Assembly (NCBI GenBank): GCA_024707145.1
Contig: JANQAI010000005.1
Location: 1,240,001 to 1,304,000, forward strand
DNA from: Magnetospirillum sp.
Lineage (GTDB): Bacteria > Pseudomonadota > Alphaproteobacteria > Rhodospirillales > Magnetospirillaceae
Direction of reading: 5' to 3'
DNA length: 64,000 nt
Positions 13,319-39,391 of this stretch are shown here, one piece after another (the first letter of the stretch is position 1; every line of letters begins with the position of its first letter). The notes under the pieces were generated by a model, which saw only the letters and a program-made list of their open reading frames with translations, was not told the DNA's origin and searched no databases. Both the position numbers and the translations under genes were made by a program.

Positions 13319-13328
13319 GTCGCCCCCG

Positions 13329-14377: not shown

Positions 14378-14409
14378 GGCGGTTCCACCACCATGATCGC
14401 CGCCGGCTC

Positions 14410-16115: not shown

Positions 16116-16370
16116 TGTAGCACGCCCGTCCTCCGCTGAAAGCGGGTGATCCGGCCCGGGAGCGCCACACACCCCAATTTACCACAGGTTGCGCAACCAG
16201 CGACGACGATCCCAGGGAAATTCCCCACGGAACGGCCGCGCGGAATTATTTGCAGGACGCCGCGCAGGAGTCGCCACCGGCGCGCGTCGAATCCGGCATC
16301 CGCAACCCATCCCGTCAAGGCCGAACTCCGTCCGCGCAGGGGAGAACGGCACAGGACGAAGGAGACCGCC

Positions 16371-17027: not shown

Positions 17028-17353
17028 TCCGCGGCGACGCAACCGGGTGCCTTTCCCCCGAAGGCATCCGGCGCCGCCCCCACCCGCCCGCCGATCGAAA
17101 GAGGTGGTGATTAACCCGTTCGATGAAGTGAAATCCTAAAATTTTAGGAGAAATACATAAGTAAATCCCAACTTCATCACTCCACCTACCCCTTTATTTC
17201 CAGCAAAAATCCCGCAGGTTGCCGATCTCAAAGAAAATAAATCCCGCCCATTAACTGCGATTTAACCATGCAAAGGTTATTCGGAACACAGGCGAAACGA
17301 TAGCGGACTTTTGGTTCCGGCCGCTTTCCCGCCCGATGGGAGCCTGTGACACG
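17028..17353. other. AT-rich intergenic region before the hybrid kinase
   Basis: A clear drop in GC from 17,100 to 17,290 with A/T runs, in contrast to the surrounding GC-rich genes. It probably holds the promoter of the kinase gene at 17354. I see no open frame with coding character and no strong hairpin. Confidence 0.45.
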
Positions 17354-20324
17354 ATGACCTTGCTGGCCCGCCTTTTCCTGCTGGTGCTTCTGGCCGTCCT
17401 GCCGGCCCTGGGCATCCAGGCCTACAGCGTGTTCCAGTTCCGTGCGGAGCGCGCCGAGGAAGTCGCGGCCCAGGCCGAGCGGCTGCTGCATCTGGTCGAG
17501 GGGAGCAGGCGCGGATCGTCGACGGCGCGCGGCTGATGGTCACCTCCATCGCGGAATCCGCCACCCTGCGGTTCGGCGACTTCGCCCAGTGCCAGGCCCA
17601 TCTGATCCGGCTCGCCCAACGCGCCCCCGAATACCGCAACCTGTCCGTCCTCGACCGCGACGGCGCCGTCCTGTGCAGCGCCACGCCCGACGGCGCGCCC
17701 GCCGCCGCCGGCCTTCCCAATGCCCAGCGCCCCTATGTCCGCCGCGCGCTGGAGGAGGGGCGGTTCATCGTCGGCGAATGGACGACTCCCGGTCCGGCGG
17801 CGGAACCCGGCACCGCCATGCTGCCCTTCGCGGTGCCCTTCCGCGACGAGGCCGGCGCCGTCGCCGGGGTGGTGACGCTCGGCCTCGACCTGCCCTGGCT
17901 GGCCACCAACTTCGCGGCGCGCCCCTGCCCGAGAACGCCAGCCTGCTGGTCACCGACCGCAACGGCACCATCCTGGTCAAGCTGCCCAACGGCATCGCCC
18001 AGCGCGGCGAGCGCGTGCCGCAACCCTATCTGAACCTGCTGGGCGAAACGCGCGGCGGAGTCACCACCCTGCCCGGGATGGACGGGGTGGCGCGGGTGCT
18101 GGCCTATTCGCCGTCCCGCCAGGGCACGCGCGACCTGTTCATCAGCGTCGGGCTCGACCACACCGCCGTGGCCGGCACCATCGACCGCGCCACCCGCCAG
18201 GGCCTGCTGATGACGCTGACCGGGCTGCTGGTCGCCATCCTGGCCGCCTGGATCGGCGGCACCCTGTTCATCCGCCGCCCGGTCGAGGCGCTGATCCGCG
18301 CCACCCAGGGGTGGAGCGCCGGCAACTCCAGCGCGCGGGCCGGTCTGGTGGACCGCAAGTCGGAGATCGGCCAGCTCGGCCGCGCCTTCGACGCCATGGC
18401 CGAGACCCTGGAGGCCCGCGAGCGCGCGCTGCGCGGCTCGGAGGAGCATCTGCGCGCCGTGCTGGACGCGCTGCCCACCTTCGTCGGCGTGCTGAGCCCG
18501 GCGGGCGACGTGCTCCAGGTCAACCAGACCGCCGTCCAGGCGTCCGGCCTGCCGGTGGAGCAGATCGTCGGCCACCCCTTCCACGAGGCCTGCCGGCGCG
18601 CCTTCGCCGGCGCCGCGGGCGAGCGCCTGCGCGACGCGGTGGAACGCGCCGCCCACGGCGACTCCGCACGCTTCGACGCGCCGGTGCGCATCGCCGGGGA
18701 TCGCGCGGCGATCATGGAGATGCGGGTCACCCCGATGCACGGAAGCGACGGGCGGATCACCCACCTGATCGTCTCGGGCATCGACATCACCGAGCGCAAG
18801 TCCACCGAGGAGGCGCTGCGCGTCGCCAACGAGCGCTTCCGCACGGCGCTGCGCAACTCCGGCGTCGTGGTGTTCAACCAGGATTGCGCCCTGCGCTACA
18901 CCTGGATGCACAACCCGGCCCTCGGCTTCACGGCGGAGCGCGTCGTCGGCAAGACCGACATCGAAGTGTTCGAGGACGCCGCCGACGCCGAAGCCCTGAC
19001 CGCCATCAAGCGCCGGGCGCTGGAGACCGGCGAGGGCGTCCGCGAGGAGGTCCGCATCCGCCTCGCCGGGCAGGACCATTTCTACGACATGACCATCGAC
19101 CCGCTGCGCGGCCCGGACGGCACGCTGGCCGGCATCACCTGCGCCGCCGTGGATGTGACCGGCCGCAAGCAGGCCGAGGCCGACCTGCGCCGCGCGCGGG
19201 AGGAGGCGGAGCACGCCGCCGTCGGCAAGTCCAAGTTCCTGGCCGTCGCCAGCCACGACCTGCGCCAGCCCGTGCAGTCGCTCTACCTCTTCGCCGCCGC
19301 CCTGGGCGACCGTCTGCAGGGCCACCCCAGCCTGCCGCTGCTCGACAACATGCGTCAGGCGCTGGACACGCTGAAGGGTCTGCTGGACGGTCTGCTCGAC
19401 ATGTCGCGGCTCGAATCCGGCAAGATCGCCGCCAACCCGGTGGAGGTCCGGCTGGGGCAGGTCCTGGGCCGTCTGGTTGCCGAATACGCGCCGCGCGCCG
19501 CCCAGAAGGGGCTGGAACTGCGCGCCGTCCCGACGCGGGCCTGGGTGCGCACCGATCCGTCGCATCTGGAGCGCATCCTGCGCAACCTGATCGAGAACGC
19601 GCTGCGCTACACCCGCCAGGGCCGCATCCTGATCGGCTGCCGCCGCAGCGGTCCCGACCGGCTGCGCGTCGAGGTGTGGGACAGCGGCGTCGGCATCCCC
19701 GCCGACCGGCTGGAGGACATTTTCGAGGAGTTCACCCAGATCCAGGGCAGCGGCGACCGCGGGCTGGGCCTCGGCCTCGCCATCGTCAAGCGCCTGTCGA
19801 AACTGCTCGACCACCGCGTGCGCGTGCGCTCGAAGGAGGGGATCGGCTCCGTCTTCTCGGTGGAGATGCCGCGCGTCGTCGTGGAGAAGCCCCGTGCCGC
19901 CGCCGCCCCGCCCGCCATGGACCTCTTCCGGCAGGCCGCCAACGACTGCGCGACCAAGGGCATGGTGCTGGTCATCGACGACGAGGCGATCATCCTGCTC
20001 GGCCTGAAGGCGATGCTGGAGGGCTGGGGCTACAGCGTGCTGACCGCGCGCTCGGGGGATCAGGCGCTGGAACGGCTGCGCGCCGACGGGCGCCGCCCGC
20101 AGATCGTGCTGGCCGACTACCAGCTCCAGCAGGGGCGGACCGGTCCGGAAGCGCTGGCCGCGGTGCAGGGGCTGGTCGGCAAGGACGTGCCGGGCATCAT
20201 CCTGACCGGCGACACCGCCCCGGAACGGCTGGACGAGGCCCGCCGCAAGGGCTTCAGCATCCTGCACAAGCCGGTCTTCCCCAACGACCTGCGCAAGATG
20301 ATGGCGAACGCCGGGGCCGCGTGA
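17354..20324 (+). CDS. Hybrid sensor histidine kinase: membrane sensor, HAMP, two PAS, HisKA, HATPase, receiver; two one-base deletions
   Basis: Three frames join into about 990 residues after adding one base at the G run 17500-17503 and one at the C run 17922-17925. The N-terminus is a membrane span (LLARLFLLVLLAVLPALGI) and a periplasmic Cache-like sensor. A second span (LLMTLTGLLVAILAAWIGG) and HAMP follow. Two PAS domains (HLRAVLDALPTFVGVLSP and RFRTALRNSGVVVFNQD) come next. HisKA has SHDLRQPVQSL; HATPase has NALRYT, DSGVGIP and GLGLGLAIV. The C-terminal receiver carries VLVIDDE and the phospho-Asp in VLADYQL, with Lys in LHKPV. It resembles orphan hybrid kinases whose receiver acts as an internal phosphate sink. 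It converges with the small gene at 20568. Confidence 0.87.
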
Positions 20325-20346
20325 ACGGAAGGAAAGCGCGGCGGCG

Positions 20347-20568
20347 TCAGCGCCGACGGACGATCCGCCGCCACAGCGGCAGCGGGCGCTCCTCGGCGGC
20401 CTTCTCGTCCAGCCACTGGTCGGCCAGCTCGCGCACCTGCCAGCCGCCCAGGTAACGATCGCAGTCGATGGCGCTGTACAGACGCACCTTGTCCCGGCCG
20501 AGTCGTTCGAAATAGTCCAGCGTCCGCTGGCGGTCCGTCGCGTTCATCGGCGGGTTCATCGGGTCCAT
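20347..20568 (-). CDS. Small hypothetical protein
   Basis: 73 residues from ATG 20568, with AGGA eight bases upstream (ATG 20577 is alternative). The chain reads MDPMNPPMNATDRQRTLDYF, then a charged helix and a Trp-containing segment (GGWQVRELADQWL), ending in Arg-rich residues. GC-rich third positions suggest coding. No known family recognised. It ends 22 bases from the stop of the convergent kinase. Confidence 0.5.
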   Translation of the reverse strand: MDPMNPPMNATDRQRTLDYFERLGRDKVRLYSAIDCDRYLGGWQVRELADQWLDEKAAEERPLPLWRRIVRRR

Positions 20569-20857
20569 GGAGCGCATCCTGTCCGGCCTCCCCTCTGTGG
20601 TGCCCAAAAGAACGGCATACACCCGTCGCGGTTTGTTCAGTTGGTATATGGATTGGGCACGCAAGCATCCCAATAAGCCTTTGGTTGCAATGGCTTCCAT
20701 TCGCACCATCCGACGAAGGTCAGGTCTGCGGCCAAGGCGGTGCCCATCCCTTCCCACCCACCCCGCCGGCGTGCACAATGCGGCACACGGATGCGTGGGC
20801 GGCGGGCTGCCGCCCGGCGCGATCAAAAGACACCTTCAGAACCGGGAGCGGGGGATC

Positions 20858-21808
20858 ATGAGGAAGACGTCGTGGATGGCCGGAGCCCTGGCGGCGGCCG
20901 TCGCCGGGCTGTGCGCGGTTTCGGCCTCGGCGCAGACCAAGGTGACCGTGGCGATGAGCGGCTGGACCGGCTTCGCGCCGATCACGCTGGCCAAGGAAAC
21001 CGGCATCTTCAAGAAGAACGGCATCGAGGTCGAGATCAAGAAGATGCCGACCTCCAACCGCCACCAGGCGATGGCGGCGGGCGAGGTGCAGGCGATCACC
21101 ACCACGGTGGACACGCACCTGCTCTACGCCTCCTCCGGCGTGGACGTGACGCAGGTGCTGGTGCTCGACAGCTCGCACGGCGGCGACGGCATCGTCGTGC
21201 GCGACGCGGTCAACAGCCTCGCCGACCTGAAGGGCAAGCAGGTGGCCGTGCAGTATGGCGGCGTGCCGCAGTTCTGGCTGGCCTATGTGCTGAAGAAGAA
21301 CGGGTTGTCGATCGGCGAGGTGCAGACCGTCAACCTCCAGCCGTCCGACGCCGCCAACGCCTTCGTCGCCGGCCAGTTCGACGCCGCCGTGACCTATGAG
21401 CCGTACCTGTCCAAGGTGCGCGAGGCCAACGGCAAGATCATCGTCACGTCGGACCAGACGCCGGGCGTCATCATCGACACGCTGGCTTTCCAGCCCGACT
21501 ACATCCAGAAGAACCCGAAGGTCGTGAAGGCCTTCGTCGACAGCTGGTTCGAGGCGCTGGACGCGATCAAGCAGGACGAGAAGAAGGCCTTCGAGATCAT
21601 GGCCCGCGACGTCAACCAGACGCCGGAACAGTTCGCCAGCTCCGCCAAGACCGTGCTCTGGTACGACAAGGCCGGCAACGTCGAGTATCTGACCAAGACG
21701 ATGCCGACCTTCATCAAGGAGGTCCAGGACGTGATGCTGGAGGCCAAGCTGATCCGCAAGGCCCCGCCGAGCCTGGACAGCATGACCGACACGTCCTTCG
21801 TGAAGTAA
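20858..21808 (+). CDS. NitT/TauT-type ABC transporter substrate-binding protein
   Basis: 316 residues; signal peptide 1-26 (ending SASA). The mature chain begins KVTVAMSGWTGFAPITLAKETGIFKKNGI, the pattern of the SsuA/TauA/ThiY/NrtA group (periplasmic binding protein-like II). Later GGVPQFWLAYVLKKNGL and AFVAGQFDAAVTYEPYL fit the ligand lobes. The ligand may be an alkanesulfonate, a nitrate-like anion or a pyrimidine precursor; sequence alone does not decide. First gene of a three-gene importer with permease and ATPase. No monooxygenase or sulfur genes are in view to narrow it. Confidence 0.85.
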   Translation: MRKTSWMAGALAAAVAGLCAVSASAQTKVTVAMSGWTGFAPITLAKETGIFKKNGIEVEIKKMPTSNRHQAMAAGEVQAITTTVDTHLLYASSGVDVTQVLVLDSSHGGDGIVVRDAVNSLADLKGKQVAVQYGGVPQFWLAYVLKKNGLSIGEVQTVNLQPSDAANAFVAGQFDAAVTYEPYLSKVREANGKIIVTSDQTPGVIIDTLAFQPDYIQKNPKVVKAFVDSWFEALDAIKQDEKKAFEIMARDVNQTPEQFASSAKTVLWYDKAGNVEYLTKTMPTFIKEVQDVMLEAKLIRKAPPSLDSMTDTSFVK

Positions 21809-21830
21809 GACGGTACGTTTCTGCTGCCGT

Positions 21831-21919
21831 TGCCCCCACCCCTAACCCTCCCCCGCTGGGCGGGGAGGGGACAAAACTCCCTCCCCTGCGACAGCGGGGG
21901 AGGGCCGGGGGTGGGGGCA
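21831..21919. repeat. GC-rich palindromic intergenic repeat within the ABC operon
   Basis: The arms begin TGCCCCCACCC (21831) and end GGGTGGGGGCA (21919). Inside are two further complementary blocks (CCCTCCCCCGC and GCGGGGGAGGG). The unit folds into one long hairpin. Such REP-like elements are common between proteobacterial genes. Lying between the binding-protein and permease genes, it could lower expression of the downstream genes relative to the binding protein. Confidence 0.8.
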
Positions 21920-21956
21920 AGCGCCTCCAACACACCGACAACGGTCCACCAATCCC

Positions 21957-22745
21957 ATGTCCCCCCTCTTCACTCCGCTGAAGCCGGTCGCTCCGGCGCT
22001 GCGCACGGTGCTGGGCATCGCCTGTTTCGTGCTGTTCTTCCTGGGCTGGGGCATCGCCACCTACGGCGGCTTCGTGAAGCCGCTGTTCCTGGCCTCGCCC
22101 GGCGACACGCTGACGGCGGGCATCGCGCTGTTCCGGGAGTTCGGCTTCGCCGAGGACATCGCCGTCACGGTCTGGCGCGTCTTCGCCGGCTTCGTCATGG
22201 CCACCGCGCTGGCGGTGCCGCTGGGCATCCTGATGGGGGCCTTCAAGCCGGTGGAGGCCTTCTTCGAGGCCTTCGTGTCCTTCGCCCGCTACCTGCCGGC
22301 CTCGGCCTTCATCCCGCTGCTGATCCTGTGGGCGGGCGTGGGCGAGCTGCAGAAGATCCTGGTCATCTTCATCGGCTCGGTCTTCCAGCTCGTCATCATG
22401 GTGACGGTCATCGTGTCGGGCATCCGCACCGATCTGGTGGAGGCCGCCTACACGCTGGGCGCCAAGCGCGACGGCGTGGTGCTGCGCGTCCTGCTGCCCG
22501 CCGCCTCACCACAGATCTTCGAGGCGCTGCGCCTCGTGCTCGGCTGGGCCTGGACCTACGTGATCGTCGCGGAGCTGGTGGGCGCGTCGCGCGGCATCGG
22601 CCACATGATCATCGACGCCCAGCGCTTCCTCGACACCGGCCAGATGATCTTCGGCATCTTCGTCATCGGCGTGATCGGCCTGATCACCGACCTGCTGTTC
22701 CGGGCGCTCAACGCCCGTCTCTTCCCGTGGGCCAAAGGACGATAA
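21957..22745 (+). CDS. ABC transporter permease (NitT/TauT family)
   Basis: 262 residues from ATG 21957, with about six membrane spans. The EAA loop is visible as EAAYTLGAKRDGVVLRVLLPAASPQIFEAL, the contact for the ATPase. N-terminal spans start at LGIACFVLFFLGWGI. It works with the binding protein upstream and the ATPase that begins ten bases downstream. Typical size and layout of SsuC/TauC-type permeases. Confidence 0.88.
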   Translation: MSPLFTPLKPVAPALRTVLGIACFVLFFLGWGIATYGGFVKPLFLASPGDTLTAGIALFREFGFAEDIAVTVWRVFAGFVMATALAVPLGILMGAFKPVEAFFEAFVSFARYLPASAFIPLLILWAGVGELQKILVIFIGSVFQLVIMVTVIVSGIRTDLVEAAYTLGAKRDGVVLRVLLPAASPQIFEALRLVLGWAWTYVIVAELVGASRGIGHMIIDAQRFLDTGQMIFGIFVIGVIGLITDLLFRALNARLFPWAKGR

Positions 22746-22754
22746 GCGCCGGCC

Positions 22755-23543
22755 ATGAGCAAGCTGTCCATCCGCAACGTCGAGAAGACCTTCCCCAGCC
22801 GCAACAACACGGCGCCCACCCGCGCGCTGGTGCCGACGAGCCTGGAGGTCGCCGACAACGACTTCATCACCATCCTGGGACCGTCGGGCTGCGGCAAGTC
22901 CACGCTGCTGCGCATCGTCGCCGGGCTGGAGACGCCGAGCGCCGGCGAGGTGCTGCTGGAGGGCAAGGCGGTGTCCGGCCCCGGCCCCGACCGCGGCATG
23001 GTGTTCCAGTCCTACACGCTGTTCCCCTGGCTGACCGTGCGCGACAACGTCTGCTTCGGCCTGCGCGAGCGCGGCCTGCCGCGGGTGGAGCAGTTGGCGA
23101 TCGCCGACCGCTTCCTGGCCCAGGTCGGGCTGAAGGGCTTCGAGAACCATCACCCCGCCCAGCTGTCCGGCGGCATGCAGCAGCGCACCGCGCTGGCCCG
23201 GGCGCTGGCCAACGACCCGAAGATGCTGCTGCTCGACGAGCCGTTCGGCGCGCTGGACCACCAGACGCGCGAGCTGATGCAGGAACTGCTGCTGGGCATC
23301 TGGGAGGCCGACCGCAAGACGGTGATGTTCGTCACCCACGACATCGACGAGGCCATCTTCATGGCCAGCCGCGTGGTGGTGATGTCGGCCCGCCCCGGCC
23401 GCATCAAGTGCGACATCCCCATCGATCTGCCGCACCCCCGCTCCTACAAGGTCAAGACCACCCCGGAGTTCGCCGCCTACAAGGAGCGGTTGACCGAGGA
23501 GATTCGCGTCGAGACCATCAAGGCCGTGACCATGGAGCGCTGA
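22755..23543 (+). CDS. ABC transporter ATP-binding protein (NitT/TauT family)
   Basis: 262 residues. Walker A GPSGCGKST, Q-loop VFQSYTLFPW, signature LSGGMQQR, Walker B MLLLDEPFGALD and H-loop FVTHDIDEA are all present. The D-loop and the C-terminal tail with RPGRIKCDIPIDLPHPR are typical of SsuB/TauB-like ATPases. It closes the importer operon and is followed by a strong terminator. Confidence 0.92.
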   Translation: MSKLSIRNVEKTFPSRNNTAPTRALVPTSLEVADNDFITILGPSGCGKSTLLRIVAGLETPSAGEVLLEGKAVSGPGPDRGMVFQSYTLFPWLTVRDNVCFGLRERGLPRVEQLAIADRFLAQVGLKGFENHHPAQLSGGMQQRTALARALANDPKMLLLDEPFGALDHQTRELMQELLLGIWEADRKTVMFVTHDIDEAIFMASRVVVMSARPGRIKCDIPIDLPHPRSYKVKTTPEFAAYKERLTEEIRVETIKAVTMER

Positions 23544-23570
23544 CGCGGCTCCCTTCCGGACCGGAACATG

Positions 23571-23609
23571 GGAAAGAGCGGCGCTTGCGGGCGCCGCTCT
23601 TTCCTTTTT
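23571..23609 (+). terminator. Rho-independent terminator of the ABC operon
   Basis: A 13-bp perfect stem (23572-23584 with 23591-23603), six-base loop, then a C plus five T. Confidence 0.9.
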
Positions 23610-23649
23610 CGCACCGCTTTTCCTTTTTACCGCTCCTTTTACGGCCGGA

Positions 23650-24042
23650 TCAGGACTGGCGGCCTGTGTTCATGACCAGATCGGACAGGGCGACCCCGGC
23701 GCGCTCGGCATCCGACGCGAGCGAGCGCGGGCAACTCCAGTGCAGCCGTCCCTCGATTTCAAGCATCCGGCCCTGGCGCTTCACCACCCATACGCCGGTC
23801 GTCGCCATGTGGATGACACGGGCCAGCGGCTCTTCATCGAAAGCCGGACGGGTCCGGGCCGTGGATTGGGCAACCGCCGGCACCGCTGCCGGAACAGCGG
23901 GATGAATCGCCGCATCCGAACGCTCAAAGGCCGGCGCGCAAGGATGGACACGGACCGGCTGCAGCGGGTGCCGTTCGCGGCGATCACTCGGACGGCTCGC
24001 CGGGAGGACGGCAAGGGCCTGCGGCCTGGAAAGATGCAGCAT
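23650..24042 (-). CDS. Hypothetical protein with C-terminal conserved-looking segment
   Basis: 130 residues from ATG 24042 (ATG 24051 adds three). The first 70 residues are Pro/Arg/Ala-rich and probably disordered. The last 60 look structured (LARVIHMATTGVWVVKRQGRMLEIEG, RLHWSCPRSLASDAERAGV). No known family. It could be a real gene with GC-rich coding bias, but an alternative is a chance open frame. It converges with the ABC operon terminator. Confidence 0.45.
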   Translation of the reverse strand: MLHLSRPQALAVLPASRPSDRRERHPLQPVRVHPCAPAFERSDAAIHPAVPAAVPAVAQSTARTRPAFDEEPLARVIHMATTGVWVVKRQGRMLEIEGRLHWSCPRSLASDAERAGVALSDLVMNTGRQS

Positions 24043-24461
24043 GGTGGGCATCCTGGGACGTTTCCGATGAGCCTGCGCCTACCGTGCGGCGCAGGTCGTT
24101 AGGACACTGAACCTTCCATGCAACCTTGATGATGTAAAGGGGAAACGCTCCCAATTCAGTGCAACGTTTCGACGCGGCATGATGGTAAACAAACAATAAC
24201 CAGAATTTCATTATAGTTTTCCCTTGGTGCCGCCGCGCCGTTTCCATCGGCTTTGCTGAGCGGCCCTGAGCGCCCATCTTAGGGAGAGGGACGGGAAAGC
24301 CATCTCACCCTCTTAGGGATGAGCAGAATGGCTTTCTGCCCCGGAATAGTCACACGCAGACGCGTGTTCATTCCGTAAGCATGCGTCGCAAGCGCAGGCT
24401 TGGCCGCCGGCCTCTCGGGCTGGTGGTGCCCAAGAATGCAGGGAAGAAAACGGGTAGGATC
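24043..24461. other. Intergenic region upstream of the glycine-zipper lipoprotein
   Basis: About 420 bases without a supported gene. The part from 24,110 to 24,230 is relatively AT-rich and could hold promoters for both divergent neighbours. A long stem-loop at 24295-24336 is listed separately. Confidence 0.4.
24295..24336 (+). promoter_or_regulatory. Long stem-loop in the leader of the glycine-zipper lipoprotein
   Basis: Outer stem GAAAGCCAT (24295-24303) with ATGGCTTTC (24328-24336). Inner stem CTCA.CCCT with AGGG.TGAG, closed by a short CTT loop. It lies about 125 bases upstream of the ATG at 24462, so it may be a 5' UTR structure or a terminator-like element lacking a T run. Confidence 0.4.
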
Positions 24462-24689
24462 ATGGTGAAGAAACTGGCAGTGATCGTGGTTGGCGGCCTT
24501 GTCCTGGCGGGCTGCTCGAACCTCAGCCACCGCGAACAGCGCACGCTGTCGGGTGGCGCCATCGGTGCCGCGGGCGGTGCCGCGGTCGGCGCCCTCACGG
24601 GGGGCAGCGCCGTGATGGGCGGCGTGATTGGTGGCGCCGCCGGTGCCGCGGTGGGCGCCCTGACCTCCAACAACGGCAAGCACCGGTAA
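24462..24689 (+). CDS. Glycine-zipper lipoprotein (YMGG/Rick_17kDa-like)
   Basis: 75 residues. Signal peptide with lipobox LVLAGC (Cys near residue 17). The mature chain is mainly Gly/Ala repeats of the glycine-zipper type (GGAIGAAGGAAVGALTGGSAVMGGVIGG), which pack as membrane hairpins. The family includes stress-induced outer-membrane lipoproteins. The upstream ATG at 24381 in frame would place about 27 charged residues before the signal, so the internal start is preferred. Confidence 0.8.
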   Translation: MVKKLAVIVVGGLVLAGCSNLSHREQRTLSGGAIGAAGGAAVGALTGGSAVMGGVIGGAAGAAVGALTSNNGKHR

Positions 24690-24805
24690 ACACCGGCTTC
24701 AGAAAAGGGAAACAAGGCCGCCGGACCAGTGTCCGCGGCCATCCCGAACGCCTGTGCGCCCTGAACGTCAGGGCTTCAGCAGGTTCCTAATTTTCAGGGA
24801 GATGT

Positions 24806-24849
24806 TGGAGCGGGTGAAGGGAATCGAACCCTCGTCGTAAGCTTGGGAA
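24806..24849 (-). tRNA. 3' half of tRNA-Gly(CCC), probable integration (att) site
   Basis: Read on the minus strand, this ends with a 7-nt acceptor strand CACCCGC, discriminator T and CCA (24806-24809 region). A normal T arm precedes it (TTCGATT loop), then GCTTACGACG. It starts at the anticodon loop TTCCCAA. Sequence to the right no longer fits the tRNA: the 5' strand of the anticodon stem and the D arm are missing. A tRNA truncated at the anticodon loop, with the 3' end kept, is the duplicated att core left by tyrosine-integrase elements. The orientation puts the element on the right. Confidence 0.75.
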
Positions 24850-24996
24850 CGGCGGAACAAGACAGGAACGGACGTTGGCGGACGCTGGCGGACTCAGCAA
24901 TTTCAATGGCTTAGCGAAACGCCGTCTGCTATCATCCGGGCTCGACCGCCGACGCTTTTCCGTACCGATTCCGTACGAGGAGACCCGTTCATGGCC
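24850..24996 (+). other. Left end of a truncated integrative element, with possible integrase start
   Basis: After the tRNA fragment come direct-repeat-like words (GGACG.TGGCGGACGCTGGCGGACT, 24870-24893) that could be arm-type integrase sites. Near the end is GAGGAGA (24977-24983) followed by ATGGCC at 24991, placed like a ribosome site and start codon of an integrase gene. The adapter begins at about 24997, so at most two codons remain. That this was an integrase is inference from position. Confidence 0.4.
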
Positions 24997-25123
24997 AGTG
25001 CTGTTGGATTCTATCGTGTTTCCCTATTAACCTTAGCAATACGTAGCCTTTTTTCAATGTACTTCGTTCAGTTACGTATTGCTAAGGTTAATAGGGAAAC
25101 ACGATAGAATCCGAACAGCACCT
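24997..25123. other. Oxford Nanopore adapter plus native barcode, read out and in (assembly artefact)
   Basis: Order: barcode flank AGTGCTG (24997-25003), reverse complement of a 24-nt barcode with one base lost (25004-25026), flank TTAACCTT (25027-25034), start of the reverse adapter AGCAATACGTA (25035-25045), then a T-rich patch. The forward adapter follows (25056-25083, beginning AATGTACTTCG and ending TACGTATTGCT), then flank AAGGTTAA (25084-25091), the same barcode in forward sense (25092-25115) and flank CAGCACCT (25116-25123). From memory, the adapter is the ligation adapter top strand and the barcode is native barcode 04. This is synthetic DNA, not biology. Confidence 0.96.
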
Positions 25124-25678
25124 GTATGAGCACATCGTGTTCGGTGATCATCGTCATCACTACATGTCGGCGATCCCCGGCATGGCCGAGCGCACGGTGA
25201 TGTGCAGTTCGCTTTCGAAAACCTTCGCGATCACCGGGTGGCGGTTGGGCTATGTTTACGCGTCACCGGAATTCGTTGCGCAGGGCCGCAAGGTGCACGA
25301 TTTCCTGACGGTCGGTGCGGCGGCGCCGCTGCGGCGCGCGCTTGGGGCTGGTTTGCTTTTGCCTGCCGGCTATTACCCGGGCTGGCCTGGGGTGTGGAAA
25401 GCGTGGCGGGATATAGTTCTGGTATCTGAATATGAGGGGGGCTGCGTTATTCCGAGCCGCAGGGAGCCTATTTCGTCATGGTGGACATTTCGCCGTTTGG
25501 ATACGCCAACGACGTGGAGTTTGCCCATTGGCTGGCGAAGGACATCGGGGTCGCCGGCGTGCCGGGCTCCGTGTTTTTCCACACACCGGAGCACCGTTAC
25601 ATCCGCCTTAATTTCGCGAAGAAAGACGCGACGCTCCATGCTGCGGGTGAGCGATTACTGAATTTGAAACACGGGTAG
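25124..25678 (+). pseudogene. Class I/II aminotransferase, 3' fragment with several frame changes
   Basis: The first frame reads HHYMSAIPGMAERTVMCSSLSKTFAITGWRLGYVYA. This holds the PLP lysine motif SLSKTFAITGWRLG of methionine/kynurenine-type aminotransferases. The last frame (MVDISPFGYANDVEFAHWLA through RLNFAKKDATLHAA) holds the C-terminal domain with the substrate Arg in YIRLNFA. Between 25,330 and 25,470 the frame changes more than once and no single base repairs it. The N-terminal half is lost at the adapter join. The many errors fit a stretch covered by one or few reads next to the join. Stop TAG is at 25676-25678. Confidence 0.75.
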
Positions 25679-25747
25679 GGCCCGACCTCCGGGCGGGCCG
25701 TCGTTCCATTTATCATTTCCTCGGCCCGCTCGGAGGGCGGGCCTACC
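25674..25747. repeat. Imperfect palindrome over the aminotransferase stop
   Basis: Left arm 25674-25699 (starts GGTAGGGCCCG) pairs with right arm 25723-25747 (ends GGGCGGGCCTACC), with a loop of about 23 AT-rich bases. It overlaps the stop codon and lies between convergent genes, so it may act as a bidirectional terminator. Confidence 0.7.
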
Positions 25748-25765
25748 GAAACTAACAAGGGTGGG

Positions 25766-25787
25766 GGGCGGTTATCCCTAACCGCCC
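25766..25787. repeat. Palindromic repeat unit A
   Basis: Perfect 9-bp stem GGGCGGTTA (25766-25774) and TAACCGCCC (25779-25787) with loop TCCC. It belongs to the same repeat family as 25828-25849, but in the opposite sense. Confidence 0.75.
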
Positions 25788-25827
25788 TTGGATAGCCCGT
25801 TGCTTGTCTGCGCGCGTGCATCGTGAA

Positions 25828-25849
25828 GGTCGGTTGGGGATAACCGACC
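25828..25849. repeat. Palindromic repeat unit B
   Basis: 8-bp stem GGTCGGTT (25828-25835) and AACCGACC (25842-25849). Its reverse complement matches unit A at most positions (core CGGTTATCCC.AACCG). Both lie in the gap between two convergent genes. Confidence 0.7.
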
Positions 25850-25866
25850 CTACCGTTGAGTCACGA

Positions 25867-27210
25867 TCAGTCGCGCACTGCGCCGATTGCCTCGTCCAAA
25901 ACCGCCAGCGCAAAATCGGCGTCGGCTTTCGTGATGTTCATCGGCGGAGCGAAGCGGATGGTGTGGCCCCAAAGGCCGCCTTTGCCAAGAAGGAGTCCGA
26001 GCTCGCGCGCGTTTTCGACGGCGGCGGCGCACTCTTCGCGTCCGGGCGTTTTGGTGGCGCGGTCTTTCACAAACTCGATGCCGAGCATCAGGCCTTTGCC
26101 GCGCACGTCGCCGATGATCTTGTGTTTTTCCTTCAGCTTGTTGAGACCGGCGAGCAAATGACGGCCGAGTTCGAGGCAGTTTTGCTGGGTCTTTTCGTTG
26201 TCGATAACTTCGAGCACGGCTTTGCCGATGGCGCTGACGACGGGGTTGCCGCCGAAGGTGTTGAAATGGGTCTTCTGTGTCATGACGGCGGCGATTTCCG
26301 GCGTGGTGACGACGGCGGCCAGGGGCGCGCCGTTGCCGATACCCTTGGCCATCGTGACGATGTCGGGTATGACGCCCTGGGTTTCAAATCCCCAGTAATG
26401 CGTGCCGGTGCGGCCGAAGCCTGTTTGCACTTCGTCGGCGATGCAGACGCCGCCGGCGGCGCGCACGTGTGCGTAAACTTGTTTTAAGTAACCCTGCGGA
26501 AATTCGACAAATCCGCCGACACCCTGGATCGACTCGGCGATGAAGCCCGCGACTTTTCCCGAGGTAGTGTAGTCGATGACTTGTTTGACGTCGTCGGCGT
26601 ATTTGCGGCCGGCGTCGGGATCGTCGTAACCGAAGTTGCCGCGGTAGGGATAAGGCGAGACGGCGTGATGCACGCCAAAGGAGTGGGGGACGTTGAATTT
26701 CCAACCGCTATGTGCGGTGACGCCCATGCCGCTGGCGTTGCCGCCGTGATACGCGTTGCGCAGGGCGATGACGTCGTAGTTGCCCGTGTAGAGCCGCGCC
26801 ATGAGCAGGGCCAGATCGTTGGCTTCGGAGCCGGAGTTGACGAAATAACAGACCTTCAGATCGCCGGGGAATTTAGACGCGAGCTTTTCCGCGAACTCTC
26901 CGATGTTGGGGTTGAGGTAGATTGTCGTCGAGTGCTGCAGCAACTGGTTTTGGCGATTGGCGGCCGCGACGACATGGGGATGACAGTGGCCGACGCTGAC
27001 GGTCACGATGCCGCCGAGTCCGTCCAGGTAGCGTTTGCCGGTGCTGTCCCACCACTGCATCTTGCCCTCCACAATCATGATCGGCTGCTTGTAGTAGAGG
27101 AAGAGTCCGGGATTGAGGAACTGTTTGCGCTGCGCGAGCACCTGTTCGAGCGACGGGCCGGTGTAGGCGGCAGGGGTGTGCGAAGTTGTGGGGAGAGGAA
27201 TGGGGTTCAT
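25867..27210 (-). CDS. Class III aminotransferase (beta-alanine:pyruvate or AGXT2 type)
   Basis: 447 residues from ATG 27210. PLP-binding features: [13 protein letters not shown] (phosphate loop), [35 protein letters not shown] (Asp to pyridine N) and the Schiff-base lysine in [15 protein letters not shown]. The class III fold with this spacing matches eukaryotic-type AGXT2 and plant alanine:glyoxylate aminotransferase 2. In the context of dihydropyrimidinase, PreA and MmsA the likely step is beta-alanine (or 3-aminoisobutyrate) to malonate (or methylmalonate) semialdehyde. It is the last gene of the minus-strand pyrimidine cluster. Confidence 0.88.
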
Positions 27211-27283
27211 GGGAGAAGCAGGTCGAATGATGAATGACGAATATCGAATGACGAATGGCGTCGGAAAATAACGAGGGTGTGAG

Positions 27284-28772
27284 TTACGTGCCGGGAGCGA
27301 GTTTGCGAAGGATGAGATAAACAAAGAAGGCCAGCGTGAAGCCGACGAACCAGGCGTAGTTGTAGGGAGCGAGCAGCCAGGCTGACGTGGTCGCGGGGTC
27401 GAGGGCTCCGACCTGTGCGAGAAATCCCGGCAACGAAGGCAGCACGGCGAGGACAAAGGTGGTGAGCGAGACTATGCTGAAGCCGTTACGGTAGCGGTAT
27501 GCGCCGTGCGTTTCGTAGAGTTCGGCGACGTTCAGGTGTTTTTGGCGGACGATAAAATAGTCGGCGATCATGATGCCGGCGATTGGCCCGAGGAGCGCGC
27601 TATAGCCGATCAGCCACGTGAAGATATACCCCGAGGGATCAGCCATGAGTTTCCACGGCATCATGATGAGTCCGAGAATCGCCGCGATGATTCCACCGGT
27701 GCGGAAGCTGATATGCCTGGGCGCGAGTGCAGAAAAATCGTTCGCCGGGGAAACGATGTTGGCGGCGATGTTGGTGGACAAGGTGGCGACCGCGAGTGTC
27801 ACGAGCGCTGCGGCGGAGAGCGTTTTACTGCCGAACTTCGCGATGACCGCGACCGGATCCCAGATGGCTTCACCAAATACGACGATGGTTGCGCTCGTGA
27901 CCACGATGCCGATGAACGAATAAAGTGCCATCGTGGGCGGGAGTCCGATGGCTTGGCCGATGACTTGATCGCGCTGGGTGCGGGCGAAGCGGGAAAAGTC
28001 AGGGATGTTGAGTGAGAGCGTGGCCCAGAAGCCCACCATCGCGGTGAGCCCCGCGCCGAACACCGGCCAGAATTTTCCGGAGGCGAGCAGGGTTTCCGGT
28101 TGGGAGAAAATAGGCCCGAAACCGTCGGCCGCCTGATAGGCCCAGAACATCAACACGCCACCGATCAGCAGGAGGAATGGCGCGCTCAGCACCTCGAGCC
28201 ATTTGATCGATTCCATGCCTTTCACGATGAAGTAAACATTGATGGCCCAAAAAATCAGGAAGCACCCAAACTCGCCGGGGGACAGGCCAAGCACGGGCAG
28301 GATGGTTTTGGTGGAGGGATCGAAACCGAAAATAATCGCGGCCGTGCCGTAGATCGCGGCGCCACCCACCCAAGCCTGAATGCCGAACCAACCGCACGCG
28401 ACCAATCCGCGCATCACGGCGGGAATATTTGCGCCGAAGGTGCCGAAACTTGCGCGCAATAAAACCGGAAAAGGGATGCCGTAGGCCGTGCCGGGGTGCG
28501 CGTTGAGGGTCATCGGAATCAACACGATTACGTTGCCCAGAAAAAACGCAGAGCAACGCCTGCCACCACGTCATGCCTTGTGAGATGAGTCCGCTCGCCA
28601 TGGTATAGGTGGGGATGCAGACCGCCATGCCGACCCAGAGCGCGGCGATATGCCACTGCGTCCACGTGCGCTTCGACGGCGGCACTGGCGCGAGATCGGG
28701 ATTGGACAGGGTGGAGGTTGGGCTGGCGCTCGCGGCGGAGTGTGGGATGGGGGCGGACGTGGGCGTGTGCAT
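27284..28772 (-). CDS. NCS1-family permease (uracil/cytosine/hydantoin type), one-base insertion
   Basis: The N-terminal frame ([28 protein letters not shown]) and the main frame join when one base is removed from the A run 28541-28546 (T run on the coding strand). The joint then reads [15 protein letters not shown], giving 495 residues with about 12 spans. The motifs [34 protein letters not shown] and [12 protein letters not shown] are typical of NCS1 nucleobase:cation symporters. It lies between the aminotransferase and dihydropyrimidinase genes, so it probably imports uracil, thymine or dihydropyrimidines across the inner membrane. Confidence 0.88.
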
Positions 28773-28973
28773 CGGATTGCGCGGGACGACGGGAGGGGAT
28801 GATGAATTAAAATGACGTGGCGAATGACGGGGGGACGTGAAACGAATGCCGGCGAAGTGAGGCGGGTGGGCATTGATTGCGGGAGGCGGTTAGCTCGTTT
28901 GGTAAACGTCATTCGCCGTTTGAGCATTCAGCATTCGTCATTTTGGCATCCGGTATTCGCGCAGCGTTTGCGT

Positions 28974-30356
28974 TCAAAAATGACTTGGCGTGCGGCGGAG
29001 AAATTTTCCGCGTCCGAAGGTGCCGCAGAAACGGCCGTGTTGAGCTGCGATTTGTCCTCGGATAGTGACGACGCTGGCGCGGCCTTCGATGGGCCAGCCT
29101 TCGAACGCGCTGTAATCGACGTTCATGGATTGGGTTTTCGCGGAGATGGTGCCGCGGTGGTTGGGATCGAAGATTACGAGGTCGGCGTCGGCGCCCGGCT
29201 GGATGGTGCCTTTGCGTGGGAAGAGTCCGAAGAGTTTCGCGGCCTGCGTGCTCGCAATGTTCACGAAGGTGTGCAGATCGATTTTGCCGGTTTTGACGCC
29301 GTGCGTGTAGAGCAAGTTGACGCGTTCTTCGAGCGAGGGGATGCCGTTGGGGATTTTGGTAAAATCGTCTTTTCCCATCGGTTTCTGGTTTTCGAAATCA
29401 AACGGTGCGTGGTCGGTCGCGACGGTTTGGATAAGACCGTCGCGCAGGCCGTTCCAGAGCATCGATTGATTCCGCGCGTCGCGCAGCGGCGGCGACATGA
29501 TGTATTTCGCGCCTTCGAAATCTGGTTTTTCGGCGTAGGTTTTATCGAGCGTGAGGTATTGAATGAGCGTTTCGATGCCGACGCGCACGCCGCGCCGACG
29601 GGCGGCGATGGCTTCGTCGAGCGCTTCCTGGCAGCTCAGATGGACGATGTAGGTCGCGGTGCCGGTGAGTTCGGCGAAAGTCATCAAGTGGTGCACGCCT
29701 TCCGCTTCGACCCGAGGCGGGCGACTTTCGTGGTGCTGCGCGGGATCGGTTTTTCCAGCGGCGAGCAGTTCCTTGCACCGCTCGCTGACGAGGGTCTCGT
29801 TTTCGCAATGCGCGGTGACGATGACGCCGAGTTCCCTGGCGAGTTTGAGCGTGCGGTAGAGTTCGGTGTCGTCGATTCCGAACGCGCCTTTGTAAGCGAG
29901 GAATATTTTGAAGGAGCTGATGCCGCGTGCGACGATTTCGCGCAGTTGTTGTTCGGTGGTGTCGTCGAATTTGGTCACGCCCATGTGAAACGTGAAATCA
30001 CACGCGGATTTTCCGACGGCCTGCTTCATCCAGAGATCGAAGCTCGCGAGCGCGTCGTCGCTGCGCGCGGGACAACACATTTCGATCAGCGTGGTCGTTC
30101 CTCCGACGATCGCGGCTTTCGAACCGGTCTCGTAGGTGTCCTTCGAAAACGTTCCCATGAACGGCAGGTAAATGTGCACGTGCGGATCGATGAATCCGGG
30201 GAAAACGTAATGGCCGCGTGCGTCGATCACTTCACAACCGGCAGGGGCGGCGAGATTGCGGTCGATCCGGGTGATGGTCTCGTCCTCGCAAAAGATGTCG
30301 GCGAAGTAGCGGGAGTCGGCGGTGATGATTTCGCCGTTTTTAATAAGAAGTGACAT
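28974..30356 (-). CDS. Dihydropyrimidinase / hydantoinase
   Basis: 460 residues from ATG 30356. Binuclear metal site: His59 and His61 (FIDPHVHIYLPF), the carbamylated lysine Lys150 in SSFKIFLAYK, His in IVTAHCEN, His in YIVHLSC, and Asp in VATDHAPF. The enzyme opens the dihydropyrimidine ring to N-carbamoyl-beta-amino acid. Phenylhydantoinases share the fold, but the neighbours point to dihydropyrimidinase. The C-terminus is typical in length and ends in basic residues. It is 16 bases downstream of the four-helix-bundle gene's stop. Confidence 0.92.
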   Translation of the reverse strand: MSLLIKNGEIITADSRYFADIFCEDETITRIDRNLAAPAGCEVIDARGHYVFPGFIDPHVHIYLPFMGTFSKDTYETGSKAAIVGGTTTLIEMCCPARSDDALASFDLWMKQAVGKSACDFTFHMGVTKFDDTTEQQLREIVARGISSFKIFLAYKGAFGIDDTELYRTLKLARELGVIVTAHCENETLVSERCKELLAAGKTDPAQHHESRPPRVEAEGVHHLMTFAELTGTATYIVHLSCQEALDEAIAARRRGVRVGIETLIQYLTLDKTYAEKPDFEGAKYIMSPPLRDARNQSMLWNGLRDGLIQTVATDHAPFDFENQKPMGKDDFTKIPNGIPSLEERVNLLYTHGVKTGKIDLHTFVNIASTQAAKLFGLFPRKGTIQPGADADLVIFDPNHRGTISAKTQSMNVDYSAFEGWPIEGRASVVTIRGQIAAQHGRFCGTFGRGKFLRRTPSHF

Positions 30357-30378
30357 GGGGAATGTGATGTGTGACGAG

Positions 30379-30772
30379 TTATTGGCGTGATGTTTCGAGT
30401 TTGCGGCGCAAACCGTTCAACATGCGGCGAAGCTCTCCTAAAAAGTTGGGTGATGGGTGCCGCCTGTTGCACTGAGATGAAACTCAGTTCGGTCGAAAGG
30501 TGTATTTGCGTGTCCAACTCGGCGACTGAGCCTTCGGCATGAGAAATGAATTGGATAAATTCACCGGTTGTGTGGCGCGCTTGACCCTCGGCAATGTTCG
30601 ATGAGATGGAAACGGCGGCACGCCTCATCTGAGATATCAGCCCGAACTTTTCATCAGCCGGAAATGTTTTGGTGAGGGTGTATATTAACTTGGCGACAGA
30701 TATACCTTTTTGCCAAACCACGAGATCGCGGTATCCTTCAGCTTTAGGATTCTCGAAGGTAGGCTGTTTCAT
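30379..30772 (-). CDS. Four-helix-bundle (S23/IVS-type) protein, one-base insertion
   Basis: From ATG 30772 the chain reads MKQPTFENPKAEGYRDLVVW, then QMRRAAVSISSNIAEGQARHTTGEFIQFI. This is the signature of the S23 / four-helix-bundle family, best known from intervening sequences in 23S rRNA genes but frequent as free genes in environmental bacteria. Removing one base from the A run 30440-30444 continues it as QLLGELRRMLNGLRRKLETSRQ and a stop, giving 130 residues. Function unknown; S23 is thought to bind RNA. Its place inside a catabolic cluster is unexpected. Confidence 0.83.
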
Positions 30773-30815
30773 CTCGTCACATTCCACTCGTCACTTGTCA
30801 CACAGGCGCTTCGCC

Positions 30816-32301
30816 TCACTTTTTCCACACGTCGCCCACGTCGCCGCCGAACCAGCGGGAGCTGACGACTTTTTGCCGGGTGTAGAATTGGATGCTTTCT
30901 TTTCCTTGGATGTGCAGGTCGCCGTAGAACGAATCGTCCCAGCCGGTGAACGGAAACATCGCCATTGTCGCGGGCACGCCGACGTTGACGCCGACCATGC
31001 CGGCTTTGACACGCATCGTGAATTCGCGCGCGGTCCGACCGTTGTTTGTGAAAATTGCGGCACCATTTCCGAAGGAGGATTTGCCGGCTTGTTCGATAGC
31101 CGCATCGAGATCGTCCATACGCATGACATTCAGCACGGGGCCGAAGACTTCTTCCTTCGCGAGCGTCATGTGATTTTCCACGCCGTCGATGACGGTTGCA
31201 CCGACGTAAAAAACCTTTCGGGGCATCGGCGATTTTCACGCCGCGTCCGTCAGCGATGACTTTGGCTCCTTCTTTCTCACCGCTGGCGACCAGACTAAGC
31301 ACGCGGTCGCGATGGGCGGCGGTGATGACCGGGCCCATATCAGGCTGCGCAGCGCGGTCGGTCGGGCCGACTTTGATGGCGCTGGCGGCTTTGATGAGTT
31401 CGGGCAACACGAGATCTGCCGCTTTGCCGACTGCGATGGCGGTTGAGCCGGCCATACACCGTTCGCCCGCGCAGCCGAAGGCGGCGGTGGAGAGGTTTTC
31501 GACCGTCTTCGAAATATCTGCGTCCGGCATGACGACGATGTAGTTCTTTGCGCCGCCGTTGGCTTGGACGCGTTTGCCGTGCTTCGTGCCGGTTTCCCAA
31601 ATGTATTTCGCAATCGGCGTGGAGCCGACAAAGGAAATCGCTTTGACCTTCGGGTGCATGAGCAATGCATCGACGGCTTCGCGGCCGCCGTGGACGATGT
31701 TGAACACGCCTTTGGGCAGGCCGGCTTGTTCGAGGAGCTCGCCAAGGAGGATCGCGCTCAGCGGGACTTTCTCACTTGGTTTGAGAACGAAGGTGTTTCC
31801 GCAGGCGATCGCGGTGGGAAACATCCAGAGTGGCACCATCGCGGGAAAATTAAACGGAGTGATGCCGACGCACACGCCGAGCGGCATGTTGATCGTGTCG
31901 CAATCGACGCCACGCGCGATGTTGCGCAGCGAATCGCCGAAGAGCAGAGTGGGAATGCCGCAGGCGTATTCGACATTTTCGAGCCCGCGGAAAATCGACC
32001 CGCGCGCCTCGATGTGAGTTTTGCCGTGCTCGCGTGAGACCGTTTGGCAGAGCTTGTCGAAGTTATGTTCGATGAGCTGTCGGTATTTGAAAAACACGCG
32101 CGCCCGCTCGACCGGCGGCGTCTCGCTCCACGCCGGAAACGCGGCGTGCGCGGCTTCGACGGCGGCGTTCACTTCGGCACTACCGCCGGCGGGACATTCT
32201 GCGATGATATCGCCCGTGGAAGGATTAAAGACCGGAGTCGCGGCGATTTTGGGAGTGAACCACTCGCCGTTCACGTAATTGGGGCAGGGTGAGAGAGGCA
32301 T
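30816..32301 (-). CDS. mmsA: Methylmalonate-semialdehyde dehydrogenase (CoA-acylating), one-base insertion
   Basis: Aldehyde dehydrogenase fold. The catalytic Cys lies in FGCAGERCMAGSTAIA, the MmsA form of the active-site loop. The cofactor region reads GITPFNFPAMVPLWMFPTAIACGNTFVLKPSE. The frame breaks at the A run 31208-31213; with one base removed it continues as GFYVGATVIDGV... to DVGDVWKK, 494 residues in all. The enzyme converts malonate or methylmalonate semialdehyde to acetyl-CoA or propionyl-CoA, which completes uracil or thymine breakdown. No good ribosome site is seen before ATG 32301, where the flanking repeat of the GxxExxY cassette ends. Confidence 0.88.
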
Positions 32302-32307
32302 GTTTTG

Positions 32308-32340
32308 TTTTGAACCACAGAGGCACGGAGGCACAGAGAG
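32308..32340. repeat. Left inverted repeat of the GxxExxY cassette
   Basis: 33 bases beginning TTTTGAACCAC, with internal GAGGCAC and CACAGAG words. It matches the reverse complement of 32866-32898 at all but about four positions, all purine transitions. It lies between the stop of the GxxExxY gene (32342) and the start of mmsA (32301). Confidence 0.85.
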
Positions 32341-32341
32341 G

Positions 32342-32773
32342 CTAGTTAGGGGAAGGTGGTGTGTTGAAGGTGTCGCCGGTTACGATGCGTCGCACGCCAT
32401 CCATTAGACGGGGCACATTGAAGTTGATGAGTAATCCCAGCGGACGGTTTTCCAGCTTCAGATAGGTGAGCAACTGGGCGTGGTGAATCGGATGTAGCTC
32501 GTTCACTGCTTTGAGCTCGAGCAGCAGTTCGTTCTCCACCGCGAAGTCGATGCGGTAGCCGCAATCGAGTTTCACGCCTTTGTAAAGAAGTGGGCGGTCT
32601 TGTTGGCGCTTAAACGACAGACTCGCGAGAGTGAGTTCGTGGGCGAGCGCCTCTTCGTAGGCAGATTCTAGTAAACCGGGGCCGAGCTCTCTGTGGACTT
32701 CGATACAAAGTCCGAGAACGCGGTGGGTGAGTTCATTGAAGTATTTCTTTCGATCGATATTCTCAGGATTCAT
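32342..32773 (-). CDS. GxxExxY protein
   Basis: 143 residues from ATG 32773. Diagnostic segment HRELGPGLLESAYEEAL (G-L-L-E-S-A-Y gives the GxxExxY name). Then come YRIDFAVENELLLELKAV and HHAQLLTYLKLENRPLGLLINF, which resemble the PD-(D/E)xK nuclease-like pattern often noted in this family. Function is unknown. The family is widespread in Verrucomicrobiota, Planctomycetota and Bacteroidota. Here it is bracketed by inverted repeats that end just outside the coding region. Confidence 0.9.
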   Translation of the reverse strand: MNPENIDRKKYFNELTHRVLGLCIEVHRELGPGLLESAYEEALAHELTLASLSFKRQQDRPLLYKGVKLDCGYRIDFAVENELLLELKAVNELHPIHHAQLLTYLKLENRPLGLLINFNVPRLMDGVRRIVTGDTFNTPPSPN

Positions 32774-32865
32774 CGACGGGTCATTTGCGTGGTGATTGGC
32801 CCGTTGGAGAAAAATAAATCGAGGAACCGACAAGCGAAGTGATGAAGAACAGATCCGAACATCTG

Positions 32866-32898
32866 CTCTCCGTGTCTCTGTGCCTCCGTGGTTCAAAA
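32866..32898. repeat. Right inverted repeat of the GxxExxY cassette
   Basis: Mirror copy of 32308-32340, ending in GTGGTTCAAAA. It lies between the GxxExxY start and the stop of preA (32908), about 10 bases from the latter. Confidence 0.85.
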
Positions 32899-32907
32899 TC
32901 AAAAGGC

Positions 32908-34053
32908 TCATCCTTTCGAGAGCGCGTCGGATTGTTTCACGAAGTCGTCGCCGGTCCATTCGGCGTCGTTTTTCACGACTTTGCTCGGAGTCGCGGTGGC
33001 GGCAGCAGCGGCGGCCGCTTTCTGGGCGGCTTTGCGATCAGTCTGACGTTTCACGAGGTCGGCGTGCGTCGTGAAGTAGTCGAGGCTCCTGCCTTTGAAA
33101 TCGGCGAGGGTTTCGAATTTATGTTTCTCCATGAAGGCGAGGAGCTGTTCCTGCATGGGCTTTACGCATTCGTATCCGAATTTCATGACGCCGGTGCAGA
33201 CTTGCACGGTGTCGGCGCCGAGGAGGATGAATTGCGCGGCGTCTTCGCCCGTCTCGATGCCGCCGAGGCCGGAGAGCGAGCGGCCGGGAAATTCCTTCCG
33301 GATCATCGTGGCCAACTCCATCACCATGCGGAGCGCGATGGGTTTCACAGCTTTCGAGGAGTAACCGCCGGGCGTCGTGTAGCCTTCGACGTTGGGCTCG
33401 GGGCGGAGCGTATCGAGGTTAACGCTCATGACGCTGCGGATCGTGTTGATCGCGGCGAGGCCGGTGGCGCCTCCGCGCAAAGCAGCGCGGCCGGGTTCTT
33501 CGATGTGCGTGATGTTGGGCGTCATCTTTGCCCAGAAGGGTTTGGTCGCGGCGGATTTTACCCAGCCGCAGACTTCTTCGAGGATTTCGGGATTCTGGCC
33601 CATCGCGGCGCCCATCTTGCGTTCGGGCAGGCCGTGCGGGCAGGAGAAGTTGAGTTCGAAGGCGTCGACGCCGGCGGCTTCGCAGCGTTGGACAAGTTCG
33701 ATCCATGCGTCCTTATTGTATTCCTCCATGATGGAGGCGATGAGCGCACCGGGTGGTTGGGCGTCTTTGCATTTCTTAAACTCGTCTTCCCAGAGTTTGA
33801 AGGGGCGGTCGGAGATGAGTTCGATGTTTTCCCAGCCGATGACTTCGCCGCTTTCGGCGTGCAGTTTCGCGTAGCGCGGGGAGACGTTGGTGATTTTCGA
33901 GGCATCGAGCGAAACGGTTTTCGCGATGACGGCGCCCCAACCTTCGCGGAAGGCGCGGTTGATTACGCTGAGATTCGTGCCGGGAGGGCCGGAGCCGATG
34001 ACGAAAGGATTGGGGAGTTTCAGACCGTCAACGACCGTCGCGAGTGTGGGCAT
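32908..34053 (-). CDS. preA: NAD-dependent dihydropyrimidine dehydrogenase subunit PreA
   Basis: 381 residues from ATG 34053. Dihydroorotate-dehydrogenase-like FMN barrel: NPFVIGSGPPGTN, FELNFSCPHGLPERKMGAAMGQNP (active-site Cys in SCPHG), WAKMTPNITH and SGLGGIETGEDAAQFILLGAD. It reduces uracil or thymine to the dihydro form. Unlike E. coli PreA, no C-terminal CxxCxxC iron-sulfur motifs are visible; the tail is Ala-rich and ends DDFVKQSDALSKG. The partner flavoprotein PreT is not in the window. An in-frame ATG at 34092 would add 13 residues. Confidence 0.9.
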   Translation of the reverse strand: MPTLATVVDGLKLPNPFVIGSGPPGTNLSVINRAFREGWGAVIAKTVSLDASKITNVSPRYAKLHAESGEVIGWENIELISDRPFKLWEDEFKKCKDAQPPGALIASIMEEYNKDAWIELVQRCEAAGVDAFELNFSCPHGLPERKMGAAMGQNPEILEEVCGWVKSAATKPFWAKMTPNITHIEEPGRAALRGGATGLAAINTIRSVMSVNLDTLRPEPNVEGYTTPGGYSSKAVKPIALRMVMELATMIRKEFPGRSLSGLGGIETGEDAAQFILLGADTVQVCTGVMKFGYECVKPMQEQLLAFMEKHKFETLADFKGRSLDYFTTHADLVKRQTDRKAAQKAAAAAAATATPSKVVKNDAEWTGDDFVKQSDALSKG

Positions 34054-35676: not shown

Positions 35677-35686
35677 TCCTGCTGAC

Positions 35687-36382: not shown

Positions 36383-36397
36383 AAATTTCGAATGCGC

Positions 36398-39285: not shown

Positions 39286-39305
39286 TGGGAGAGGAGCCTT
39301 TCTTT

Positions 39306-39375: not shown

Positions 39376-39391
39376 GTGGAAGGAGAAAGAT

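Follow-up and report, generated by a model that had tools for sequence, protein, structure and literature searches.

Nanopore adapter and barcode DNA, most likely from one unsplit read, at the boundary of two organisms inside a bacterial contig

Passages of White et al. (2017; PMC5600009) put chimeric Nanopore reads at a frequency of at least 1.7% and describe in-silico chimeras, in which two molecules are separated by a brief open-pore signal. In passages of Xu et al. (2018; PMC6156371), chimeras arise during sequencing, and an adapter in the middle of a read is the signature by which they are detected. Here we are confident that bases 24997-25123 of a 64,000-base stretch of genomic DNA (the whole stretch is hereafter called the window) are leftover Oxford Nanopore library DNA, most likely from two molecules that passed back to back in one unsplit read. 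As in the chimeras of those two studies, there are two molecules per read with a barcode or adapter between them. Unlike those passages, which deal with reads and not with finished contigs, the product in the window survived assembly and binning, and it sits in a genome that stands as the sole one of its species. The type of artefact is already known and published and is of little biological interest.

The window covers positions 1240001-1304000 of contig 2 in a bin of 5,144,195 bases and 15 contigs (91.57% complete, 6.31% contaminated). Both reading of the letters and alignment of the library constructs placed the 127 bases of library DNA exactly at the boundary of two organisms (Table 1). 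The DNA to the right of the join amounts to 160,392 bases in all, up to the end of contig 2.

Table 1. Parts of the join and the DNA on its two sides (window coordinates).
Feature	Position	Strand	Basis or remark
Left genomic DNA	1..24996	.	Main bin organism, an Azospirillum-like alphaproteobacterium
Native-barcode inner flank, reversed (AGGTGCTG, one G missing)	24997..25003	-	Flank printed in PMC10593777
Native barcode 04 in reverse, lacking one C	25004..25026	-	Construct alignment, published barcode
Native-barcode outer flank, reversed (TTAACCTT)	25027..25034	-	Construct alignment, published flank
Start of reversed ligation adapter: A and first 10 bottom-strand bases	25035..25045	-	Published adapter
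T-rich patch GCCTTTTTTC (GCC, six T, C)	25046..25055	+	Y-adapter top-strand 5' leader, by resemblance only
Ligation adapter top strand, exact 28/28	25056..25083	+	Published adapter
Native-barcode outer flank AAGGTTAA	25084..25091	+	Published flank
Native barcode 04, exact 24/24	25092..25115	+	Published barcode
Native-barcode inner flank CAGCACCT	25116..25123	+	Published flank
Right genomic DNA	25124..64000	.	Opitutaceae-like (Verrucomicrobiota), runs on to the end of contig 2
Cut-off aminotransferase	25125..25680	+	Two pieces in two frames, same NCBIfam model NF006569

A construct consisting of the adapter top strand and the flanked barcode 04 matched 25056-25123 at 68 of 68 bases and so reached the highest possible score (136). 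Over 48 bases (24998-25045), the reverse construct aligned with a single gap (score 92). The best score of either construct on both strands of the sampled rest of the window was 24, and 200 shuffles of each construct scored no higher than 25 on the junction region. A read-end construct (24997-25045) is thus followed by a read-start construct (25056-25123), and the two carry the same barcode. The reversed adapter is cut short and lacks the final 12 bases of the bottom strand as printed, and the first A of the reversed inner flank may be a dA-tail. An earlier note made from the letters had proposed that an adapter and barcode lie inside the contig, in the order flank, reversed barcode, flank, reversed adapter, T-rich patch and then the forward mirror image. 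The published letters bear out the first proposal, and reading and alignment together recovered the same order. The barcode number given in that note, 04, was right.

The letters of the construct appear in several publications. A passage of PMC10593777 prints AAGGTTAA-barcode-CAGCACCT with exactly the barcode of the window and names it NB04, PMC8643650 prints its reverse complement as BC04, and PMC8142563 lists it as a flow-cell barcode. Both strands of the ligation adapter are printed in PMC7490894. Excerpts of PMC9965538 and PMC9848274 give the Y-adapter top strand with a leader of AACC and ten T running into AATGTACTTCG, and an excerpt of PMC12886913 gives the SQK-LSK114 form, with CCTG at the position where the window has AATG. 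The patch in the window reads CC, six T, C and then AATG, as against the ten T without an extra C of the published leader, and is best read, by resemblance only, as the Y-adapter leader. The patch and the AATG resemble the form printed in PMC9965538 and PMC9848274, and an older ligation chemistry is therefore likely, judging from the letters. PMC9965538 itself used the older sequence to screen an LSK114 assembly.

The composition of the DNA changes at the join. The GC content was high in the two left pieces of the window (0.69-0.72) and lower in the three right ones (0.58-0.59); across the join itself, it fell from 0.694 at 13-24.9 kb to 0.591 at 25.2-38 kb. Between these same two pieces, both of which helped to build the references, the tetranucleotide correlation fell from 0.959 to 0.609 with the left reference and rose from 0.618 to 0.973 with the right one. 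Six right-hand pieces outside the references (window 38-51 kb, and contig 2 at 1305k, 1345k, 1365k, 1385k and 1405k) correlated at 0.956-0.971 with the right reference and at 0.587-0.626 with the left. Once switched at the join, the tetranucleotide profile stayed constant to the end of contig 2. The composition of the left DNA correlated with that of pieces of contigs 3, 7, 9, 13 and 14 of the bin.

Homologues change at the same point. Among the best 120 matches for each protein, the left permease (21957-22745) had 83% identity to Azospirillum halopraeferens and 90-91% to other relatives. The right dihydropyrimidinase (28974-30356) had 88% identity to Oleiharenicola lentus, 90% to another relative and 85-87% to further named entries of Opitutaceae or Verrucomicrobiota. 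The organisms at this join are named from one protein per side together with composition.

The right-hand DNA also brings duplicate genes into the bin. Two RNase P RNAs in the bin exceed the cut-off; one lies on contig 13, the other in the DNA to the right of the join. In 30 relatives, a single RNase P RNA over the cut-off was found in 28, one genome had only fragments below it and one had none. A DNA gyrase subunit B is likewise encoded on the right; it passes the cut-offs of two subfamily models but not that of the gyrB equivalog model, and a piece of gyrase/topoisomerase A lies beside it. This subunit B is the third long match of its type in the bin, the others being on contigs 11 (55%) and 14 (41%). 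Three matches to the gyrase B query also occurred in the relatives G001, G003 and G038, where each set included partial pieces, whereas all three in the bin are long.

DNA searches with both sides against 60 relatives and the bin were a poor test: the left query matched 59 of 61 genomes, with nearly all listed matches coming from one ABC-transporter ATPase gene, and the right query matched 36 of 61, where the matches were short and weak. The first 205 right-hand bases had no match in a DNA search of plasmids. In place of these searches, we relied on composition, homologues and duplicated genes, which support an origin of the two sides in different phyla and uphold the claim that the window is a chimera of two organisms.

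On its right, the library DNA borders a cut gene. The first piece of this aminotransferase matched PF00155 at 188-250, PDB entry 1u08 (YbdL) at 205-269 and NF006569 at 205-272. The second piece, in another frame, matched 1u08 at 317-385 and NF006569 at 314-385 and had no Pfam match at 0.001. All these scores were far below the whole-protein cut-offs, as those of pieces must be. The gene starts at about residue 205 of its relatives, so that about 204 residues are missing, and the cut coincides with the end of the adapter DNA. Its frame shows a net change between 25328 and 25451, and an uncorrected indel this close to the join would fit a thin read cover there. The warning that gene claims crossing this point are invalid is correct for the aminotransferase, given the absent residues and the frame change.

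On the left, an open frame begins with an ATG at 24991, and only its first codons remain before the adapter. About 150 bases left of the join, 43 bases (24807-24849) are identical to the 3' part of the bin's tRNA-Gly(CCC) gene, which is present in full on contig 1. This 43-base copy and the ATG may represent the attachment site of an integrative element with a putative integrase that was cut off.

When the window junction was compared with the whole bin by DNA similarity, a second junction emerged on contig 8 (15757-15858). The parts follow the same order there: inner flank, reversed barcode 04, adapter remnants, adapter, flank and barcode 04. This junction contains many indels and no recognisable T-rich patch. 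The GC content changes from 0.545 to 0.748 in the adjoining kilobases. On the low-GC side, a histidine kinase matched an entry from Paenibacillaceae at 84% identity and Paenibacillus sp. YN15 at 78%, and about 15.7 kb of Paenibacillaceae-like DNA is thus attached to high-GC DNA. Two barcode-04 junctions therefore join three phyla in one bin.

The whole-bin search returned only these two junctions. Local alignment over 338,532 bases of the bin (19,000 of them counted twice) likewise returned the two known junctions only, although copies in a more degraded state may have escaped both. A scan for 22 adapter bases with up to 3 mismatches found the window site alone and was insensitive, as it missed the junction on contig 8. 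Within the Paenibacillaceae-like stretch of about 0.55 GC, we also observed, at around 3500-5300 of contig 8, a repetitive open frame and one kilobase with a GC content of 0.75; local alignment detected no adapter there.

An inverted duplication, in which both strands of one molecule are read, was considered and rejected for both junctions. No DNA similarity at 1e-5 was found between the 20 kb left and the 20 kb right of the window join, or between the 15.7 kb and 8.1 kb flanks of the contig 8 junction. Two different molecules were therefore joined at each junction.

The order of the parts bears on how the window join arose. A read-end adapter, a leader-like patch and a read-start adapter between two barcodes fit an unsplit read better than ligation at the bench. 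The earlier note had likewise proposed two library molecules read back to back and left unsplit, and that proposal is favoured by this order and by the T-rich patch if it is read as the leader. Two molecules would have passed the pore in immediate succession and been recorded as one raw read, which was not split; the fusion would thus date from read segmentation, after the bench work. The assembler would then have linked two unrelated contigs through this fused read. The join is probably covered by few reads, because the reverse half of the library DNA and the aminotransferase carry uncorrected indels. The forward half is free of errors over 68 bases, which is cleaner than expected of one raw R9-type read; it may reflect accurate basecalling or more than one read. 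Two back-to-back library molecules were most likely stored as one read, and the join would then be a technical artefact with no biological meaning. The further conclusion of the note, that the reads were untrimmed, holds to the extent that one internal adapter was left unsplit.

It is improbable that ligase joined two barcoded molecules during library preparation and that the product was sequenced as one. Ligation chimeras in Nanopore libraries are described in a passage of PMC5600009, and the identity of the barcodes on both sides agrees with such an event. However, a product joined barcode to barcode has no reason to carry a read-end and a read-start adapter between the barcodes, and both are present. 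The leader of the Y-adapter is a free 5' arm, which one would not expect inside a ligated strand, although the leader of the window is known by resemblance only. No T-rich patch is recognisable at the contig 8 junction, which makes us slightly less confident of an unsplit read and raises ligation slightly.

A search of genome_contigs with an exact 30-base sequence of adapter and flank returned eight stretches in four genomes (the window's own genome was possibly left out), all eight within 15 bases of a contig end. Like the window, these stretches have the adapter and outer flank, and two Prescottella plasmid contigs among them carry barcode 04 with one difference each. Unlike them, the window has its copy within the contig, doubled, inverted and linking two phyla. 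Contig ends with untrimmed adapter therefore do exist, and an assembler or scaffolder might have concatenated two finished contigs with such ends, with no fused read involved. We nevertheless consider this very unlikely, as the two ends have no same-strand overlap and no N gap lies between them, and as the indel-rich junction on contig 8 fits a raw read better than polished contig ends. Finally, a genuine gain of Verrucomicrobiota DNA by the left organism at a tRNA-Gly attachment site deserves almost no credence: a mobile element may begin at the 43-base copy, but 127 bases of library DNA, with adapter and barcode, fill the very boundary so that the native DNA is not continuous, the right-hand DNA has an RNase P RNA and a gyrase subunit B of its own and a foreign composition for 160 kb, and the cut in the aminotransferase coincides with the last adapter base.

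Adapter sequence also occurs in other public records. The 68-base forward construct had at least a partial match in 9 of 50,697 phage records, 8 of 72,556 plasmids and 4 of 5,426 E. coli genomes. Escherichia phage ERS-1 (PP337211), deposited as 'complete' and marked unverified, contains an internal adapter junction at about 58007-58073, the one examined among three places in this record. Like the window, it has a reversed barcode construct, a T-rich patch, a forward adapter, an approximate barcode 04 and an inner flank, all internal. Unlike the window, its left barcode differs and is the sequence printed as BC05 in a passage of PMC8643650. The suggestion that both organisms of the window came from one barcoded sample fits barcode 04 on both sides of both junctions, but the shared barcode is no proof of it, as ERS-1 shows the same anatomy with two barcodes.

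In viral_contigs, the adapter alone had one match, and adapter with flank had none. The match, in IMGVR_UViG_3300049043_000152 (stretch 1685-1712), is an unbarcoded adapter inside a viral contig with GC contents of 0.67 and 0.42 on its two sides. Only short matches (21-40 bases) were found between the sides, and this contig is probably another chimera.

Ten distinct records, plasmids or chromosomes, account for the plasmid and E. coli matches (8 and 4, with two shared). Five of the ten (NZ_CP040290, NZ_CP073657, NZ_CP152297, NZ_CP124743 and NZ_CP182221) have the adapter at 49.2-50.5% of their length. Head-to-head duplication was suspected for these, and stretches of four of the five were aligned. 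The flanks have nothing in common in NZ_CP040290 and NZ_CP182221, two inverted matches (about 79% identity) were found in NZ_CP152297, and a 723-base direct repeat flanks the adapter in NZ_CP073657. Such mid-record positions would fit contigs whose ends were joined by circularisation before the sequence was rotated by half its length.

A gene neighbourhood, operon, island or horizontal transfer inferred across window position 25,000 is a false one. Two segments, the Verrucomicrobiota-like one of 160 kb and the Paenibacillaceae-like one of about 15.7 kb, should be separated from the bin, and their genes should not be credited to the genome. The test for internal adapters is a simple screen that we suggest for other long-read metagenome bins. 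As this bin holds two joins over three phyla and a phage genome holds a cross-barcode one, we tentatively raise the idea, which we regard as rather unlikely, that adapter-sealed joins are a hidden and systematic source of false cross-phylum links in long-read genomes and phage records. If this were true, scanning for read-end/read-start constructs inside contigs would uncover a whole class of spurious horizontal transfers.
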